Source: Yoonia tamlensis (lineage in GTDB: Bacteria; Pseudomonadota; Alphaproteobacteria; Rhodobacterales; Rhodobacteraceae). Taken from it: a stretch of DNA of 64,000 bases. A program made the position numbers and the translations under genes. The notes beneath the pieces were generated by a model. That model worked only from the letters and a program-made list of their open reading frames with translations, was not told where the DNA came from and searched no databases. Where the stretch lies: NCBI RefSeq assembly GCF_900115105.1, contig NZ_FOYP01000001.1:2258097-2322096 (forward strand). The letters are read 5' to 3'. This document shows positions 34,093 through 41,184 of the stretch, piece after piece; the first letter of the stretch is position 1, and the number at the start of each line of letters is the position of its first letter.

Positions 34093-34554
34093 TTATAGGC
34101 TGCCAAGAAGGGTGCGTTGCGCATTCCAGTCGGCGGGGACACCATTGGTTTTGAGCCACTCCGATGTAATAGCAACAGGCTGCATACCGCTGGTGATCTT
34201 GGCCAGGAGATCCGGTGCCAGAAAAGCCAGCGTGATCATCGCCTTGAAGTGACGCTTGCTGATGCCAGCCTGCGTCGTAACCTGATTGATGGTCGCGCCA
34301 CCGACAATTTGCTGATACCAGCGGCGCGCGCCGTTGACGTTGCGCAGCAGTGTCGCATCAAGTTGCGCCGTCTCTGCGCCGATAATCATGCGCGTTTCAA
34401 CGCCGCGCCGTTTGAGCGTCAGCGTCTCTGCCCACGCAAGCGCATCCGGTGTTAACTGACGTGGCTGAGGCACCAGAGCAGTGCTGAGTTCCGCGGCGGG
34501 CGCATCTGCAAGCAGCGAGGCGACAAATTGCGAGTCCGTAATGCGCTTGCGCAT
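34093..34554 (-). pseudogene. Serine site-specific recombinase, C-terminal remnant
   Basis: A 153-residue open frame matching the C-terminal tail of large serine recombinases of alphaproteobacteria: GARRWYQQIVGG, the HTH ATINQVTTQAGISKRHFKAM, LAFLAPDLLAKITSG and a final PADWNAQRTLLGSL. The N-terminal catalytic domain is absent and a stop lies 12 codons upstream. It is a dead remnant of an element integrated near the att-like core at 33748. Confidence 0.7.
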
Positions 34555-34792: not shown

Positions 34793-35191
34793 TTATCCAA
34801 TTGAACGCGTGATCATTACACCTGCCCAAGCAGCGAATCCTGTCAATGCGCCGCCCCAGATGGTGTCGACGACGACTTGTTCAATCGACCAATCGCGTAG
34901 CGTTGCGTAATTCGTGAACTCATAGGTACCGTAAGCAAAAAGCCCTAAGGCAATGCCACCGATCAGGGCTGCCATCGGATCACCTGCGCGCAGTGCGGGG
35001 ACTGATACAAACCACAAAACGCCAGCGATGTATCCCAAATAAAAGACGGCGGCTGGCCCCACGCGAAAAGGGTCTGCAAAAAGATGGGCGACGTGACGCT
35101 CGAACACAGGTTTGACAATCAGGCGCAGGCCAAGTGCGTCAGCTACAAAGAATATTACCGCAGTGCAAACGTAGAGAAACAGGATGTTCAT
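34793..35191 (-). CDS. DUF2177 family membrane protein
   Basis: A 132-residue inner-membrane protein with four membrane segments (begins MNILFLYVCTAVIFFVADAL; ends near VVVDTIWGGALTGFAAW, a typical DUF2177 terminus). ATG 35191 overlaps the stop of the TspO-like gene (ATGA). It is the last gene of the six-gene operon that starts at the FAD oxidoreductase. Function unknown. Confidence 0.87.
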   Translation of the reverse strand: MNILFLYVCTAVIFFVADALGLRLIVKPVFERHVAHLFADPFRVGPAAVFYLGYIAGVLWFVSVPALRAGDPMAALIGGIALGLFAYGTYEFTNYATLRDWSIEQVVVDTIWGGALTGFAAWAGVMITRSIG

Positions 35192-35904
35192 GTACTTGGT
35201 CTTTCTGTGAATGAAAATTTGGTACGAAGCGCCAACGCCGCGATGCCAAAGGTGGCCAGTGCGATCACCGGCCAATTTGTGTTGGATGAGTTTTGAACGA
35301 TGACACCGACCAATGCCCAAATGACCGCTGCGGGGTAACCCCACTCGCGCGGTCGGGCTGATTGCACGGCAAGCGCAACAGCCAATACGCCTATAAGACA
35401 GATGATAGCTGCGGCTTGCGCTGAAAAGACCCCATACCCCCCAAGCAAAACGCCGATTGCCACTCCGGAGGCTGCGGTCAGCCAACCAGCGTAAAGCGCG
35501 ACGGGCCGCACTTGCAACCACGGTTGGAGATTGCCTGCGCGCAACACGGCAAGGATTGCTAGCGCGGCCATCGCCACAATCATGATCGTGGCCAAAATTG
35601 GTGCTGAATTTGCGGCGGCAATCCAGAATGTGCCGATAATCAAGCTGCCCGCCAAAGGCATGCGCATGGCGTTCCATCCCGGATCATTGGGTGCCCGCCA
35701 AAGCCCGTATCCCGCGCCGAGGACAAGCCAAAAATAGATAATTCCCCAGATCGAAAACGCGTAGCTGGCAGGCTGAACGGGAGGGTCGATTTGAGGGATT
35801 GGAAACTGAAACGGGGTAAAACCGTTGAAGCCGACGCTGGCCAAAGGTGACAGGACGAATGTCAGCGTGAAAAACAACACTACCAAAGCAAGTTTATTTC
35901 TCAT
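35188..35904 (-). CDS. TspO/MBR-like tryptophan-rich membrane protein
   Basis: A 238-residue membrane protein with about seven segments. The block PPVQPASYAFSIWGIIYFW (about residues 40-58) is the signature of the extended TspO/MBR-like group. In Rhodobacter, TspO is a known outer-membrane sensor that tunes photopigment genes; this longer relative may differ. ATG 35904 overlaps the SDR stop (ATGA); the longer start at 35940 is rejected. Confidence 0.8.
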   Translation of the reverse strand: MRNKLALVVLFFTLTFVLSPLASVGFNGFTPFQFPIPQIDPPVQPASYAFSIWGIIYFWLVLGAGYGLWRAPNDPGWNAMRMPLAGSLIIGTFWIAAANSAPILATIMIVAMAALAILAVLRAGNLQPWLQVRPVALYAGWLTAASGVAIGVLLGGYGVFSAQAAAIICLIGVLAVALAVQSARPREWGYPAAVIWALVGVIVQNSSNTNWPVIALATFGIAALALRTKFSFTERPST

Positions 35905-36638
35905 TGGGTTAACCTTTTGGTGAGAGGCAATGCCGCCCAATAAGGAAGGGCGCTAAGCAACTTTAAGCTCCATGTAAGACGCCGGGGGAAATGCACTTCA
36001 AAATGCTTTGCCTCTAGCCCCTTGATGATCGCGTTTGCTGCACTTTGCGGCGTAACGATTGCGGGCATATGGAACGTGTTGCGTTGTGTCAGTCTTGTGT
36101 CGACAAAACCGGGATTGATAAGCCGGACATCAACGCGACCCGAAAGTTCGGCACGTAGCGATTCCGCTAGATTGATGACCCCAGCTTTGGTCGCCGAATA
36201 GATCTGACCCTGAGGTAACCCAATATAACCAGCCACAGACCCGCATAGTGCAAGCTGCCCACCTGTTCGCAACAGCGCTGGGGCGACTTGTGCGATGTGG
36301 AAGCTGCCAGTCAGATTGGTGGTCACGATCTGTGCCGCCATACCGGGATCAAGGTCTGCGACCTTGCCCGGATCATAGATGGCCGCTAGATGCACGATAC
36401 GATCTATATGGCCGATTTTACCGACTTCGTCAGCAGCAGCGTCAATGCTTGCTCGATCTGACACATCGACCGCGATCGGAATGTGCTCTTCTCCAAGCTC
36501 TGCCGCGAGGTCTTTCAGCCTATCTAGCGAACGCGCGGACAATATCAGACGCGCGCCGCGCCGCGCCCATTCGCGGGCCAAAGCCGCGCCGATGCCATCG
36601 CTGGCACCGATGATCCAGATGGTTTCACGTTCAGGCAT
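35901..36638 (-). CDS. Short-chain dehydrogenase/reductase
   Basis: A 245-residue SDR: cofactor motif GASDGIG (about residues 10-16), HLAAIYD (NNAG equivalent), catalytic Ser in CGSVAGY and YSATK (Tyr/Lys, about 145-149). ATG 36638 overlaps the CFA synthase gene by 8 bases. Conserved position next to CFA-family genes in Rhodobacterales sigma-E operons suggests a role in modifying membrane lipids, but the substrate is unknown. Confidence 0.9.
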   Translation of the reverse strand: MPERETIWIIGASDGIGAALAREWARRGARLILSARSLDRLKDLAAELGEEHIPIAVDVSDRASIDAAADEVGKIGHIDRIVHLAAIYDPGKVADLDPGMAAQIVTTNLTGSFHIAQVAPALLRTGGQLALCGSVAGYIGLPQGQIYSATKAGVINLAESLRAELSGRVDVRLINPGFVDTRLTQRNTFHMPAIVTPQSAANAIIKGLEAKHFEVHFPRRLTWSLKLLSALPYWAALPLTKRLTQ

Positions 36639-37788
36639 GGGCCAGCTCCACTTGCACGACATCTGTCTGTTCGACTGCAAATGATCCGGCGCAAATGCCG
36701 AGATAGAACTGCCAATTACGGAGGAATTCTTCGCCGTAGCCCAGCTTGTTCACTTTTGACGTCTGGGCCGCTAGTCGATCGCTCCACTGAGCACAGGTGC
36801 GGGCGTAATCTTGGCCAAATCTATGGTTTCCCGTGACGATCAGACCCGCACGCCTTGCTTGATCAGCAATCACCGCATCCGACAGCAACATACCACCAGG
36901 GAAGGTATATTGCCGAATATAGTCGGCGCTACGCCGATAGGTATCGAAATAGTCATCGGGAACGGTGATCGCTTGAATAACGGCGCGCCCACCTTCGGAA
37001 AGTCGGGCTTTGAGCGTCGCAAAATAAGTCGGCCAGTAGCTCTCTCCGACAGCTTCAATCATTTCGATCGAGACGATACTGTCATATTTTCCAGTACTCT
37101 TACGGTAATCTTGCAACCGTATTTCCGCGCGACCATCAAGCCGCGCATCAGCATAACCTTTTTGACTTGGTGAGATCGTCAGTCCAGTGACGTGGCGACC
37201 AGTTTCGGCCGCTCGGTCGGCAAAACCGCCCCAGCCGCAACCAATTTCGAGAATACGTTCGGCATCCCCAATTCGGTTCAGCACCCGGTCGTATTTGCGC
37301 GTTTGCGCGCGGCCGAGATCGTTATCATCCGGCGCAAACATCGCTGACGAGTAGGTCATGCTTTCGTCCAGCCAAAGCTGATAGAATTCATTGCCCACAT
37401 CGTAATGCGCGCGAATATTGCGCGACGCACCCTTAAGGGAGTTGGTACGCAGCAAGCGGTTGACCACACGAAATTTCAAACTTGCCCAGAACCCCGCATA
37501 GGCATAGCCGCGAAACTCTTCGAGGTTCTTTAGTGCAACAGCTGTTATATTTTCGATAGAAGACGTGTCCCAGAGCCCCGCGACATATGTTTCACCCAGC
37601 CCGATATCGCCTCGCGATGCGATGGATGTAACGACGGACCAATCGTTTATTTGCATGTCAGCGACAGGGCTGCCTTGGCCAAAATTGTATATCTCGCCTT
37701 CTGGCGTGCGCAGTTGCAAGCTGCCAGACTTCATTTGTGCGCAGGTCTGCAAGAAATCTTGTTTTACGCGATTTGTTAGGAACAGCAT
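36631..37788 (-). CDS. Cyclopropane-fatty-acyl-phospholipid synthase family methyltransferase
   Basis: SAM-dependent methyltransferase acting on unsaturated acyl chains of phospholipids. The acyl-site segment AHYDVGNEFYQLWLD is at residues 127-141, SAM motif EIGCGWGGFA at 181-190, and the C-terminal WQFYLGICAGSF is typical. Length is 385 residues. It starts on the DUF1365 stop (TAATG). Relatives in photo-oxidative regulons add methyl groups that lead to cyclopropane or furan fatty acids; which product is made here cannot be told from sequence. Confidence 0.92.
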   Translation of the reverse strand: MLFLTNRVKQDFLQTCAQMKSGSLQLRTPEGEIYNFGQGSPVADMQINDWSVVTSIASRGDIGLGETYVAGLWDTSSIENITAVALKNLEEFRGYAYAGFWASLKFRVVNRLLRTNSLKGASRNIRAHYDVGNEFYQLWLDESMTYSSAMFAPDDNDLGRAQTRKYDRVLNRIGDAERILEIGCGWGGFADRAAETGRHVTGLTISPSQKGYADARLDGRAEIRLQDYRKSTGKYDSIVSIEMIEAVGESYWPTYFATLKARLSEGGRAVIQAITVPDDYFDTYRRSADYIRQYTFPGGMLLSDAVIADQARRAGLIVTGNHRFGQDYARTCAQWSDRLAAQTSKVNKLGYGEEFLRNWQFYLGICAGSFAVEQTDVVQVELAHA

Positions 37789-38543
37789 TATGTCACCTCG
37801 GTCTTGGGGGGTGTTGGTCGGGTGCGGTATTTTGCGCCCTTTAGTTTCAGACGCAGTGCTTGCCAGTGTATCAGAATTGTCGTGCGCATGGCGCCTAAGG
37901 GACGGCGGATGGCAGCTATGACAATACCCTTGCTTGTTAACGGGGTACGTCTACCCGTGAGGGTGGCGACCACGCCGCGATCGGCGTTGCAATGCAGGAT
38001 CCGGATAGCGATCCGATCAGGCTGGATATCAAAGGTGAATTCATAAGTGCCCTTGACCTCTTGAAACGGGGACACATGCAGGGATTTCGGTGTGGTTATC
38101 CGGTGCGTTTTTGTGATGGGCGCAAATCCGTCTAGGTGACACATATAGGAGTGGCGATCGCCAAATGGTGTCGACACCTCTGCGATCACTGCGACAAGGT
38201 CATCGGCTTGCATTGCCAACCAAAAACTAACTGGATTGAACACATACCCGAACATGCGCGGTTGTGTCAGTAGTAGGAGCTGGACGTCGGAGCGCCCCAA
38301 CCCGCGTGACGCGAGTACATCACGCGCCCAATCGGCCCCACGACCATCACGAAGCGGCCCTCCGTGGTCGCGGTCTTGCACAGAAGCGAGATTGAATTGG
38401 TTGCGCGAAAACAACCACGGACCTCTCGCACCGTTTTCAGGGTCAATCAGTACATAGTCGACGCCATAGCGAAACGCATGCTTGATACTGCCGCGTCGGG
38501 CGTGGGTTGTCTCGCCCCTAATATGTTCTGGTCGTCTTATCAT
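37788..38543 (-). CDS. DUF1365 domain-containing protein
   Basis: A 251-residue protein of the DUF1365 family, with the typical opening HARRGSIKHAFRYGVDYVLID and the block MFGYVFNPVSFWLA (about residues 87-100). The biochemical role is unknown. It is nearly always found between an FAD oxidoreductase and a CFA synthase, so it probably acts on the same lipids. ATG 38543 overlaps the oxidoreductase stop (ATGA). Confidence 0.9.
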   Translation of the reverse strand: MIRRPEHIRGETTHARRGSIKHAFRYGVDYVLIDPENGARGPWLFSRNQFNLASVQDRDHGGPLRDGRGADWARDVLASRGLGRSDVQLLLLTQPRMFGYVFNPVSFWLAMQADDLVAVIAEVSTPFGDRHSYMCHLDGFAPITKTHRITTPKSLHVSPFQEVKGTYEFTFDIQPDRIAIRILHCNADRGVVATLTGRRTPLTSKGIVIAAIRRPLGAMRTTILIHWQALRLKLKGAKYRTRPTPPKTEVT

Positions 38544-39820
38544 GCGATTTGTCGATCCATCATTCGCGCGATCCGGGCCGCACTTGCAAAGCCGTCCTCG
38601 TGAAATCCATGCCGCGTGTAAGCCCCAGCATACCACGTGTTGTTTTGACCCTGCATTTCCGTCAGTTGACGCTGTGCAGATAAGGCAGCTGTATCAAACA
38701 CAGGATGCCGAAAGGTCTTTTGATCATAGATAAAGTCATCCGCTACGGGTTCTGATGGGTTTAAAGAAACGAAAAGCGGGTCGCTTGCTGGGATGTTCTG
38801 CAGACGGTTCATCCAATAAGTTACGCCGATGGCGGGCTCTGGCCGTGTGGTGTCGGCTTTGTAAACCCAGCTCGACCAAACAGCGCGACGCATAGGCATC
38901 TGTCCCACATCTCGGTGAAGGATCATTTGGTTGTCTTGAAACCGAATTGCCGACAACGCCGATCGTTCCTGCGCTGTCGGACGTTCAAGAAGGCGAAGCG
39001 CCTGATCGGAATGGCAAGCAAAGATCACTTGATCGAAAGGCTCAAGCGGGCCCGCGGCACTGTGGACAATGCTTTTGCTGCCAGTGCGGCCAACGCTGTG
39101 CACTGCAGTATTTGACCGCAATGCAACACCACGACCGCGCAGGCAATGTTCTAGGCGCCGGATGTATTCAATGGAACCTCCGTCGACGGTCCACCATTGG
39201 TGCTGTCCCGAAGCGCTCAGCAAAGCATGGTTGCGAAAGAATTGCACCAATGCCCGGGCTGGAAAAGCGCGAATTTCGCTGGGTGGCGTTGACCAGATCG
39301 CGCCGCAGAGCGGCAACAGATAATACTTCTGAAACCAGTCGCCCAACTTCAGATCCTTCATAAGATCACCGATTGTGGCGCTTTCGTCCGTTGCCAGCGC
39401 TTCGGCCCGGTCATTGAACCGCAGGATGTCCCGAACCATGCGCGCAAACTGCGGCCGCAACAGGTTACGTTTTTGCGCCGTCATAGCGGCTAGGCTGCGC
39501 AACCCGTATTCTAGCTCGCCCCCATTGATGGAGGCACCAAAGCTCATGTCACTCTTGGTGACCGGAACATCGAGATCCTGAAACATCCGGGTCAAGTGCG
39601 GGTAGTTTGCATAGTTGAATACGATGAAACCGGTATCTACCGGTTGATCACCATTGAGGCCGGCCATAACCGTGCGCGCGTGGCCGCCCAAGCGTGGTTC
39701 TGCCTCAAATACCGTCACAGCATGTTGCGGCGAGAACAAATAAGCCGCCGCAAGGCCAGAAATACCGCCACCGATGATGGCAATACGCTGTGGACGGGTC
39801 GGCACGGTATCCAAAGACAT
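38540..39820 (-). CDS. FAD-dependent amine-oxidase-like oxidoreductase
   Basis: A 426-residue flavoprotein with the dinucleotide-binding IAIIGGGISGLAAAY (about residues 13-27), the second-site EAEPRLGGHART (about 38-49) and a C-terminal FAD block AGAYTRHGFHEDG (about 403-415). This family precedes DUF1365 and CFA genes in many proteobacteria. ATG 39820 has a GGAG ribosome site. It is the first gene of the sigma-E-type leftward operon, starting about 30 bases from a predicted ECF -10. Confidence 0.9.
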   Translation of the reverse strand: MSLDTVPTRPQRIAIIGGGISGLAAAYLFSPQHAVTVFEAEPRLGGHARTVMAGLNGDQPVDTGFIVFNYANYPHLTRMFQDLDVPVTKSDMSFGASINGGELEYGLRSLAAMTAQKRNLLRPQFARMVRDILRFNDRAEALATDESATIGDLMKDLKLGDWFQKYYLLPLCGAIWSTPPSEIRAFPARALVQFFRNHALLSASGQHQWWTVDGGSIEYIRRLEHCLRGRGVALRSNTAVHSVGRTGSKSIVHSAAGPLEPFDQVIFACHSDQALRLLERPTAQERSALSAIRFQDNQMILHRDVGQMPMRRAVWSSWVYKADTTRPEPAIGVTYWMNRLQNIPASDPLFVSLNPSEPVADDFIYDQKTFRHPVFDTAALSAQRQLTEMQGQNNTWYAGAYTRHGFHEDGFASAARIARMMDRQIA

Positions 39821-39846
39821 TGAAACTCCAATTTGATGTTTAGATA

Positions 39847-39875
39847 GGTTACGCGCGTTCAAAGCATTTGGATCA
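39847..39875 (-). promoter_or_regulatory. ECF sigma-E-type promoter for the six-gene lipid operon
   Basis: Minus strand: -35 TGATCC (39875-39870), 17-base spacer, -10 GTAA (39852-39849). It matches the RpoE (ChrR-type, group ECF11) consensus TGATCC-N17/18-GTAA known from Rhodobacter. It lies 30 bases before the ATG at 39820. Confidence 0.75.
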
Positions 39876-39880
39876 AAAAA

Positions 39881-39907
39881 TGATCCGAATTCTCATCGGC
39901 CCCGTAA
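39881..39907 (+). promoter_or_regulatory. ECF sigma-E-type promoter for rpoE-chrR
   Basis: Plus strand: -35 TGATCC (39881-39886), 17-base spacer, -10 GTAA (39904-39907). The two -35 boxes form the palindrome GGATCA-N5-TGATCC at 39870-39886, so the divergent promoters are mirror images and autoregulation is implied. Confidence 0.75.
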
Positions 39908-39989
39908 TGAGGGTATGTTGACAGAATGCATCAATCTTGATCCAACTGACCGGCGCCATTCGGTAGCGCCGCGAAAGGATCGCTCTCAG

Positions 39990-40547
39990 GTGAAGCAATC
40001 ATCCCCCCAGATATCTCCTCTGACGGTCGCGATGCTGGCTGTTCGCAATAATAGAGACCGCAACGCTTTTGCCCAGTTATTTGACCATTTTGCGCCCCGC
40101 CTAAAGGGCTTCATCATGCGATCTGGCACCAGTTCGGGGCAGGCCGAAGAGATTGTACAAGATGTAATGCTGACCTTATGGCGTAAAGCAGATCAGTTTG
40201 ATCCTGAACGGGCACAGGTTTCGGCATGGGTCTACCAAATCGCACGAAATCGCCAAATCGACGTCATTCGCAAAGAAAACAGACCGGTTCCAGAAGAACT
40301 GAGCCAAGACACCGACCAAGAACCCGACGCCAGTCAGGTATTGGCGATTGAGCAGGAGGCCGGTCAATTGAAGGATGCAATCGCCCGCCTAAAGCCCGAC
40401 CAACGCGAAATCATTGAAAAAGCCTATTTGGGCGAATTGACACATCAACAAATCAGTACGCAGACCGGCTTGCCGCTCGGCACAATCAAGTCTCGCATAC
40501 GGCTGGGACTTGAACGGTTGCGCCACGAGTTGAAGGAACTAAGATAA
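39990..40547 (+). CDS. rpoE: RNA polymerase ECF sigma factor, RpoE (ChrR-partnered, ECF11-like)
   Basis: Group 4 sigma factor with region 2 (NAFAQLFDHFAPRLKGFIM...WVYQIARNRQIDVIR) and region 4 (LKPDQREIIEKAYLGELTHQQIS...GTIKSRIRLGLERLR). Followed by a ChrR anti-sigma gene, it matches the singlet-oxygen response system of Rhodobacter. GTG 39990 (AAAGGA ahead) is chosen because the predicted promoter would make the first in-frame ATG (39915) leaderless; ATG 39915 would give 210 residues instead of 185. The gene ends one base before chrR. Confidence 0.9.
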   Translation: MKQSSPQISPLTVAMLAVRNNRDRNAFAQLFDHFAPRLKGFIMRSGTSSGQAEEIVQDVMLTLWRKADQFDPERAQVSAWVYQIARNRQIDVIRKENRPVPEELSQDTDQEPDASQVLAIEQEAGQLKDAIARLKPDQREIIEKAYLGELTHQQISTQTGLPLGTIKSRIRLGLERLRHELKELR

Positions 40548-40548
40548 A

Positions 40549-41184
40549 ATGTCCGCCATCACCCACCATACACCCGATGCCTTGCTGGCCGCATATGCTG
40601 CGGGGACCCTGCCGCAGCCATTTGCGTTGGTTGTGGCCGCGCATATTTCGATGTGTCTGGAATGTCGCGCAGCCTATGAATCGCACCATGCAGCAGGCGG
40701 CGCAATATTAGAGATGACCCCGACCGAGGACGTTTCAGTTCATTTAAAATCCAACGTCCTAGACTTGTTGGATGAACCAGTGAAACGCGAGCCAAGTTAT
40801 CAACGTTCCGGGGTCTTTCCTGGTCCGATAATGGAAGCGCTCAAAGGCAAGCAGCCGCGCTGGAAATCTCTCGGAATGGGGGTCCGCCAAAGCATTTTGT
40901 CAGATAGGCATGATGGCTCAGTTCGGCTGCTTTATATTCCGCCTGGGCTCTCCGTACCGGATCACAGCCACAACGGTTTGGAACTGACGTTGGTTCTACA
41001 GGGCAGCTTCAGCGATGACACTGGGCAGTTCACCGTAGGTGATCTCGAGGTTGCGGATCAAGCATTGGAGCACACGCCGGTTGCTGACGCTGGTGCACCT
41101 TGTATTTGCCTTGCGGCCACGGACGCCCCATTGCGGTTCAATTCACTCGTACCGCGCCTACTCCAACCTTTGTTTCGAATTTGA
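40549..41184 (+). CDS. chrR: ChrR-type anti-sigma factor (zinc anti-sigma and cupin domains)
   Basis: Zinc-binding anti-sigma that holds RpoE inactive until singlet oxygen or organic hydroperoxides trigger its turnover. The N-terminal ZAS motif is His32-x3-Cys36-x2-Cys39 (AAHISMCLEC). The C-terminal cupin-like domain has His139, His141, Glu145 and His175 (PDHSHNGLE...EHTP), the same ligand set as Rhodobacter sphaeroides ChrR. The 211-residue length agrees. It starts right after the rpoE stop codon. Confidence 0.93.
   Translation: MSAITHHTPDALLAAYAAGTLPQPFALVVAAHISMCLECRAAYESHHAAGGAILEMTPTEDVSVHLKSNVLDLLDEPVKREPSYQRSGVFPGPIMEALKGKQPRWKSLGMGVRQSILSDRHDGSVRLLYIPPGLSVPDHSHNGLELTLVLQGSFSDDTGQFTVGDLEVADQALEHTPVADAGAPCICLAATDAPLRFNSLVPRLLQPLFRI

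Follow-up and report, generated by a model that had tools for sequence, protein, structure and literature searches.

The spacer between rpoE-chrR and a divergent RSP1091-like operon in Yoonia tamlensis raises the question of how one stress sigma factor can start two operons from a single short control region, and where its own message and protein begin. The RpoE-ChrR circuit serves as a model of how cells respond to singlet oxygen. We analyzed a 64,000-nucleotide stretch of the genome (hereafter the window) together with related loci. Taken as a whole, the locus is likely to be a shared ChrR-RpoE control region with mirror-image promoters, probable exclusion between polymerases, and a leaderless rpoE with two translation starts. 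The last point is new and was absent from the sequence-only reading of this DNA. No description of a leaderless or two-start rpoE in Rhodobacteraceae was found in the titles and abstracts consulted, which lay mostly outside the subscription literature.

The features of the locus are collected in Table 1. The sigma factor contains both regions 2 and 4 (PF04542 and PF08281), and its best PDB match is RpoE of Rhodobacter sphaeroides (2q1z, E 2.3e-59). The adjoining gene encodes a ChrR-family anti-sigma factor, which scores above the TIGR02451 cut-off and falls short of the narrower model NF051881 (149 vs 300). Downstream of the lipid genes, the frames at 35188-35940 and 34093-34554 on the reverse strand matched nothing in Pfam or NCBIfam at E 0.001. 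The window also contains TGATCC-N16-CGTA, the promoter form expected of a ChrR-linked RpoE, which fits the published RpoE site of the R. sphaeroides sRNA Pos19, TGATCC(N15)GCGTA (PMC5036791). As described for R. sphaeroides, the same divergent pair of operons, rpoE-chrR and RSP1091-1087, is preceded on both sides by RpoE-dependent promoters, and RSP1091 and RSP1090 are required for ChrR degradation under singlet oxygen, so that ChrR turnover closes a positive feedback loop (PMC3818230). Given the identity of RpoE and ChrR, this precedent, the match to the Pos19 site, and one RpoE-type promoter in front of each operon, the proposal of the sequence-only reading that one RpoE drives both operons is well supported; it is already known in R. 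sphaeroides and is not new.

Table 1. Features of the rpoE locus, with positions in the window
Feature	Position	Strand	Basis or remark
Short-chain dehydrogenase	35901-36680	-	PF00106; start uncertain
Cyclopropane-fatty-acid-synthase-like methyltransferase	36631-37788	-	PF02353
DUF1365 protein, RSP1090-like by position	37788-38636	-	PF07103; start codon uncertain, overlaps preceding gene
FAD amine-oxidase-like protein, RSP1091-like by position and family	38540-39820	-	PF01593
GGAG Shine-Dalgarno of divergent gene	39826-39829	-	predicted transcript start near 39841
RpoE-type promoter of divergent RSP1091-like operon	39849-39875	-	sequence; relatives' promoters
GGATCA-AAAAA-TGATCC palindrome, two abutting -35 boxes	39870-39886		sequence; tight-class gap composition
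RpoE-type promoter of rpoE-chrR, TGATCC-N17-GTAA	39881-39907	+	sequence; relatives' promoters
rpoE, long frame, 210 aa	39915-40547	+	sigma-70 regions 2 and 4; PDB match
ATG, 11 nt after -10 G; putative leaderless start codon of long RpoE and predicted transcript start	39915-39917	+	relatives' offset
AAAGGA, Shine-Dalgarno-like, 10 nt before internal GTG	39974-39979	+	sequence; relatives
Internal GTG, codon 26 of long frame, predicted start of short RpoE	39990-39992	+	conservation of Shine-Dalgarno and NTG
rpoE, short form, 185 aa	39990-40547	+	predicted from internal GTG
chrR, anti-sigma factor, ChrR family	40549-41184	+	TIGR02451, 202.2 bits vs cut-off 124.5; Cupin_7

TGATCC-N17-GTAA is present in the spacer on each strand, letter for letter as had been noted from the sequence. 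The whole site, TTAC-N17-GGATCA-AAAAA-TGATCC-N17-GTAA, occupies 39849-39907, inside the interval 39847-39909 first assigned to it, and is composed of TTAC (39849-39852), 17 nt, GGATCA (39870-39875), AAAAA (39876-39880), TGATCC (39881-39886), 17 nt, and GTAA (39904-39907). The 5-base gap and the palindrome were borne out as well: the two -35 boxes form a perfect 6-bp inverted repeat with arms about one helical turn apart (11 bp center to center). Pattern searches of the genome (3.19 Mb) returned 17 sites of the form TGATCC-N16-18-GTAA and 52 palindromes of the form GGATCA-N0-30-TGATCC, and the full double promoter, TACG-N16-GGATCA-N0-30-TGATCC-N16-CGTA, was single copy. Reversed patterns gave two, zero, and zero matches, respectively, a weak control because reversal creates CTAG, a tetranucleotide that is generally scarce in bacteria. 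With base composition ignored, about 0.0008 full double promoters would be expected per genome by chance (52 x (1/256)^2). The same pattern (gap N0-30) was found in 70 of 394 Rhodobacteraceae genomes, at 71 sites, which is far above chance. The mirror double promoter is thus confirmed as a genuine feature. One of these genomes (G206) carries two full double promoters about 5.5 kb apart on contig C33, with gaps of 20 and 22, and the other 69 carry one each.

We examined 216 related loci. Five without the 5' end of rpoE (L089, L095, L100, L103, and L110) and two without a promoter (L150 and L184, the latter at a contig end) were left out, and an RpoE promoter was found on the rpoE side in 209 of the 211 loci that hold the 5' end. 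Genome G100 has two RpoE-like matches, of which L150 is the one without a detectable RpoE promoter. The 209 promoter-bearing loci gave 187 distinct promoter-to-start stretches; 60 stretches were hand-chosen, roughly from the top of the best matches listed. The counts include possible near-duplicate genomes with slightly different letters, so that some kin may be counted twice, and they are uncorrected for kinship.

Among 81 loci (80 from named genomes plus the window), a divergent RSP1091-like gene was present directly upstream in 31, each with a mirror promoter; the -35 gap is 4 bp in 20 of these, 5 in seven, 6 in two, and 17 and 23 bp in one each. By the criteria used, the mirror promoter was absent from all 50 loci without the divergent gene. 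In the larger set, the divergent gene accompanies 114 of the 187 distinct loci; the gap is 3-8 bp in 54 of them (tight) and 10-93 bp in another 54 (wide), and six have no clear mirror promoter. Of the 73 loci without a divergent gene, 65 show no mirror promoter and eight a candidate at 15-136 bp. Tight packing is therefore one of two modes in Rhodobacteraceae. The exact double promoters of the 70 genomes have gaps from 3 to 30, the latter being the longest that the pattern allowed, and no peaks of helical phasing were seen by eye among the wide gaps of this list. Read on the rpoE strand, the gaps of the 54 tight loci are mostly A-tracts (193 A, 50 T, and 12 G or C in all). The 15 best matches to R. 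sphaeroides RpoE in the sample (L119-L133) have a mirror candidate at 32-87 bp in 13 cases; of the other two, one has a mismatched candidate at 20 bp and one has none.

In a tree of the divergent protein, for which two of the 114 loci gave no protein, at least 11 changes between the tight and wide states were counted among 105 labeled rows; L193, a long branch, was left out of a second tree. In 47 of 54 tight loci vs 5 of 51 wide loci, the gap is within 1 of that of the nearest neighbor, and from this, selection on the tight gap at one point looked clear. Gap changes numbered 19 on 12.8 branch units in the tight class (gap mostly 4-5 bp) and 43 on 17.6 in the wide class (tens of bp). We do not claim such selection, since a tight gap is a much smaller mutational target and its low variance may be an effect of that size.

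Two further arrangements were seen on the way. In four of 30 loci returned by the double-promoter search of the family (L089, L095, L103, and L110), the amine-oxidase-like and DUF1365 genes are divergent instead of co-directional, with mirror RpoE promoters (gaps of 16-30) between them. Upstream of rpoE in L046, the palindrome GGATCAAAAATGATCC is kept; a divergent amine-oxidase-like gene was undetected there and no reverse -10 was seen by eye, and the palindrome looks like a decayed mirror promoter.

Can two polymerases use the double site at once? With -35 boxes 11 bp apart center to center, the two sites for sigma region 4 are expected to face roughly the same side of the helix. About 73 bp separate the predicted transcription starts. 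Added together, the upstream footprints of two polymerases exceed this distance, and two holoenzymes should therefore clash. From the geometry, mutual exclusion of two polymerases, which the sequence-only reading had raised as a possibility, is plausible. Exclusion between opposing polymerases has been described at bidirectional promoters of Escherichia coli, which likewise use symmetric sequence for divergent transcripts (PMC12825309). There, the two promoters share -10 elements, and starts are most often 18 bp apart, with 10 and 23 also common (PMC12825309). Neither a shared -10 nor starts about 18 bp apart were found in the window; instead, the -35 boxes abut, the -10 elements are separate, and one ECF sigma factor serves both sides. 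Competition in E. coli was reported only under strong one-way activation, the basal activity of the five bidirectional promoters tested being too low for it, and separate divergent promoters are described as exempt from direct binding-site clashes (PMC12825309). The site in the window formally belongs to this separate class. By analogy with the E. coli promoters, exclusion in the window would be expected to count only at high levels of RpoE.

These considerations also lend weight to a possible but on balance doubtful alternative, namely that the site is an ordinary pair of close divergent RpoE promoters that fire independently, without exclusion and without a special function of the 5-bp gap. 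Such a pair would agree with the low basal competition and the exemption of separate promoters in E. coli (PMC12825309), with the low variance of the tight gap if this reflects a small target, and with the wide and varying gaps of 54 of the 114 divergent loci. From these wide-gap loci it follows that close packing is not required for the circuit, and many of them should let both polymerases fit. The separation of the starts nevertheless argues for exclusion in the tight class: given the footprint sizes of polymerases, full co-occupancy within about 73 bp is hard to imagine. The presence of tight (3-8 bp) and wide (10-93 bp) pairs in one family provides a ready-made test of polymerase exclusion. 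A perfect inverted repeat with arms about one helical turn apart could also be the operator of a dimeric repressor or activator instead of two -35 boxes, a reading that we reject as very improbable because the rpoE-side promoter stands alone in all 50 loci without the divergent gene and wide-gap loci part the two arms by up to 93 bp, each arm keeping its -10 spacing.

Where does the rpoE message begin? On the rpoE side, an ATG lies at +11 from the -10 G in 180 of the 187 distinct loci; 184 have one at +11 to +13, irrespective of class (tight 53/54, wide 53/54, all others 78/79). The divergent side, served by the same sigma factor, has an ATG at +11 in 1 of 108 loci, at +11 to +13 in five, and at +31 to +33 in 54. 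The base preceding +11 is T or C in 183 of the 187 loci, as at a start site. At the divergent promoter of the 54 tight loci, the same offsets are A-rich (70, 68, and 72 percent). Shine-Dalgarno-like letters were found within 7 nt before the rpoE ATG in just 32 of 187 loci, so that an AUG start without an upstream Shine-Dalgarno motif, the mark of a leaderless gene, is the prevailing arrangement. The divergent side of the tight class has such a motif within 33 nt after the -10 in 52 of 54 loci, and for the divergent operon in the window, an ordinary leader of about 20 nt that includes a Shine-Dalgarno site is predicted. Because of the fixed +11 spacing, we predict that the rpoE transcript starts at the A of an in-frame ATG and is leaderless.

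The seven loci without an ATG at +11 were looked at again individually. Three have an in-frame, open ATG at +12 (L195, L202, and L206), one has an out-of-frame ATG at +13 (L119), and one, with a 16-nt spacer, has an in-frame GTG at +11 and an ATG at +14 (L166). L075 had been assigned a chance second promoter match, and with a different -35 its +11 ATG is present. L208 has ATA and no near start. A housekeeping -35, TTGACA, over codons 2-3 (ATG-TTG-ACA) was also considered and dropped, as no matching -10 was seen by eye.

The stretch that follows the upstream ATG has the marks of coding sequence. In 179 of 180 loci, the ATG shares the reading frame of the sigma domain (L082 is out of frame as aligned), and stops between it and the internal start occur in one locus (L122), vs 150 and 124 in the other two frames. 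Across 60 near pairs, from 70 rows of equal extension length, differences at the three codon positions numbered 221, 229, and 339, the third being the highest. The open in-frame stretch and this third-position bias therefore indicate that the extension behaves as translated sequence. It is poorly conserved, and residues 1-25 have pLDDT below 50 in a structure model, in which the N-terminal tail of long RpoE is apparently disordered.

A class-level search was used to look beyond the family; 66 of 190 genomes matched and 30 loci were returned, 27 of them (L231-L257) in alphaproteobacterial families other than Rhodobacteraceae. A promoter with a 17-nt spacer was found in 17 of these 27 loci, and in 10 of the 17 an ATG or GTG that is in frame and open lies at +11 to +13 (ATG at +12 in five, ATG at +13 in two, GTG at +11 in two, and ATG at +11 in one). 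L242 was tallied under TTG at +9 and also has an ATG at +12, and counting the latter gives 11 of 17. One locus has only a TTG at +8, and five have no near start. In the loci that have such a start codon, it tracks the expected transcript start with 1-2 nt of play, as leaderless use predicts, a suggestive if not uniform pattern.

Besides the upstream ATG, rpoE has a second candidate start within the frame. In 105 of 178 loci (40/52 tight, 23/49 wide, and 42/77 others), an NTG led by a Shine-Dalgarno motif falls within codons -14 to -10, some 12 codons short of region 2; such a start was undetected in the other 73, including 26 of the 49 in the wide-gap class. Between codon 6 and the beginning of region 2, a Shine-Dalgarno-led NTG was found in 124 of 178 loci vs 30 of 178 for NTC, a control with unmatched codon usage. 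Of the 139 loci with a conserved NTG shortly after region 2 begins, only nine have a Shine-Dalgarno in front of it. At codon -12, GTG accounts for 82 of 84 valine codons vs 379 of 748 (51 percent) in the core (binomial p 6e-22, kinship uncorrected). Taken together, the upstream ATG and the conserved Shine-Dalgarno-led internal start lead to the prediction of two RpoE forms, a long one from a leaderless start and a short one. On the letters alone, the gene has the layout of a two-isoform sigma factor, with two in-frame starts and the upstream one tied to an autoregulated promoter.

Either start could instead be the only one, and both possibilities seem unlikely to a similar degree. If translation began solely at the internal GTG, the upstream ATG would be fixed merely by a base preference of the initiation region. 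The internal start does lie close to the beginning of the R. sphaeroides PDB chain (residue 15 of 2q1z aligns to residue 38 of the window, which puts residue 1 two codons before the GTG), and it is Shine-Dalgarno-led in the majority of loci counted above. Such a preference, however, should be shared by the divergent promoter of the same sigma factor, where an ATG at +11 is found once in 108 loci, and an untranslated leader would hardly stay free of in-frame stops from one start to the other in 179 of 180 loci vs 30 and 56 of 180 for the other frames. If the leaderless ATG were the sole start, the GTG would be merely a valine codon, in keeping with the 73 of 178 loci in which no Shine-Dalgarno and NTG could be detected; yet the eight valine-rich core positions have GTG shares of 0.11 to 0.77, far from the 82 of 84 seen here, and Shine-Dalgarno motifs precede the internal GTG.

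In the mechanism that we propose, the locus would serve as a control region common to the ChrR-RpoE stress operon and a partner operon of RSP1091/RSP1090-like and lipid genes. Once ChrR is degraded, free RpoE would bring RNA polymerase to either of the mirror-image promoters. Two polymerase complexes could probably not occupy the abutting -35 boxes simultaneously, and because of this, each initiation at abundant RpoE would pick one operon; at low RpoE, no interference would be expected. The rpoE transcript would begin at the ATG and yield RpoE with an extra disordered N-terminal tail of about 25 residues, and the internal Shine-Dalgarno and GTG on the same message would yield a short RpoE roughly equal to the R. 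sphaeroides PDB chain. The transcript start, leaderless translation, the two isoforms, and polymerase exclusion are the parts of this scheme that we infer. If the message is leaderless and encodes the longer protein, the sigma factor made under stress would be partly a different molecule, and the translation of a stress regulator would be independent of Shine-Dalgarno recognition when it is most needed.

A broader and more tentative proposal, about which we are slightly more doubtful than convinced, is that RpoE is a two-isoform sigma factor by design throughout Rhodobacteraceae. The long and short forms may differ in stability or in binding to ChrR or polymerase, and the isoforms would thereby set the length of the response; with a promoter that starts on the start codon, induction would yield a leaderless message for long RpoE. 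In lineages with abutting promoters, this self-amplifying leaderless rpoE arm would compete at one site against the operon that encodes, as its first two products, the proteins triggering the destruction of ChrR.

Related arrangements are known in part. SigR of Streptomyces belongs to a distant sigma group, and its long form comes from an autoregulated promoter. It is likewise an ECF stress sigma factor with two forms, SigR and SigR', and an unstable isoform amplifies the response (PMC4921905). Unlike in SigR, the long start in the window coincides with the predicted transcript start. For the R. sphaeroides rpoE-chrR locus, the available text of the report describes no leaderless or two-start rpoE (PMC3818230). 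In the same species and family, the acuR-acuI-dddL transcript begins exactly at the AUG of the regulator gene, and at least one leaderless message is thus translated in R. sphaeroides (PMC3017554); this system differs in that the regulator is a TetR-type repressor, and no second internal start is described in the portion of the report available (PMC3017554).

Five extra promoter-like sites were also examined in the Y. tamlensis genome. Four of them have no identified frame downstream. The fifth, a TGATCC-N17-GTAA site at C7:1195191 (L224), is located some 220 nt upstream of a frame with the DNA photolyase domain (PF00875); the photolyase gene phrA is a known RpoE target.
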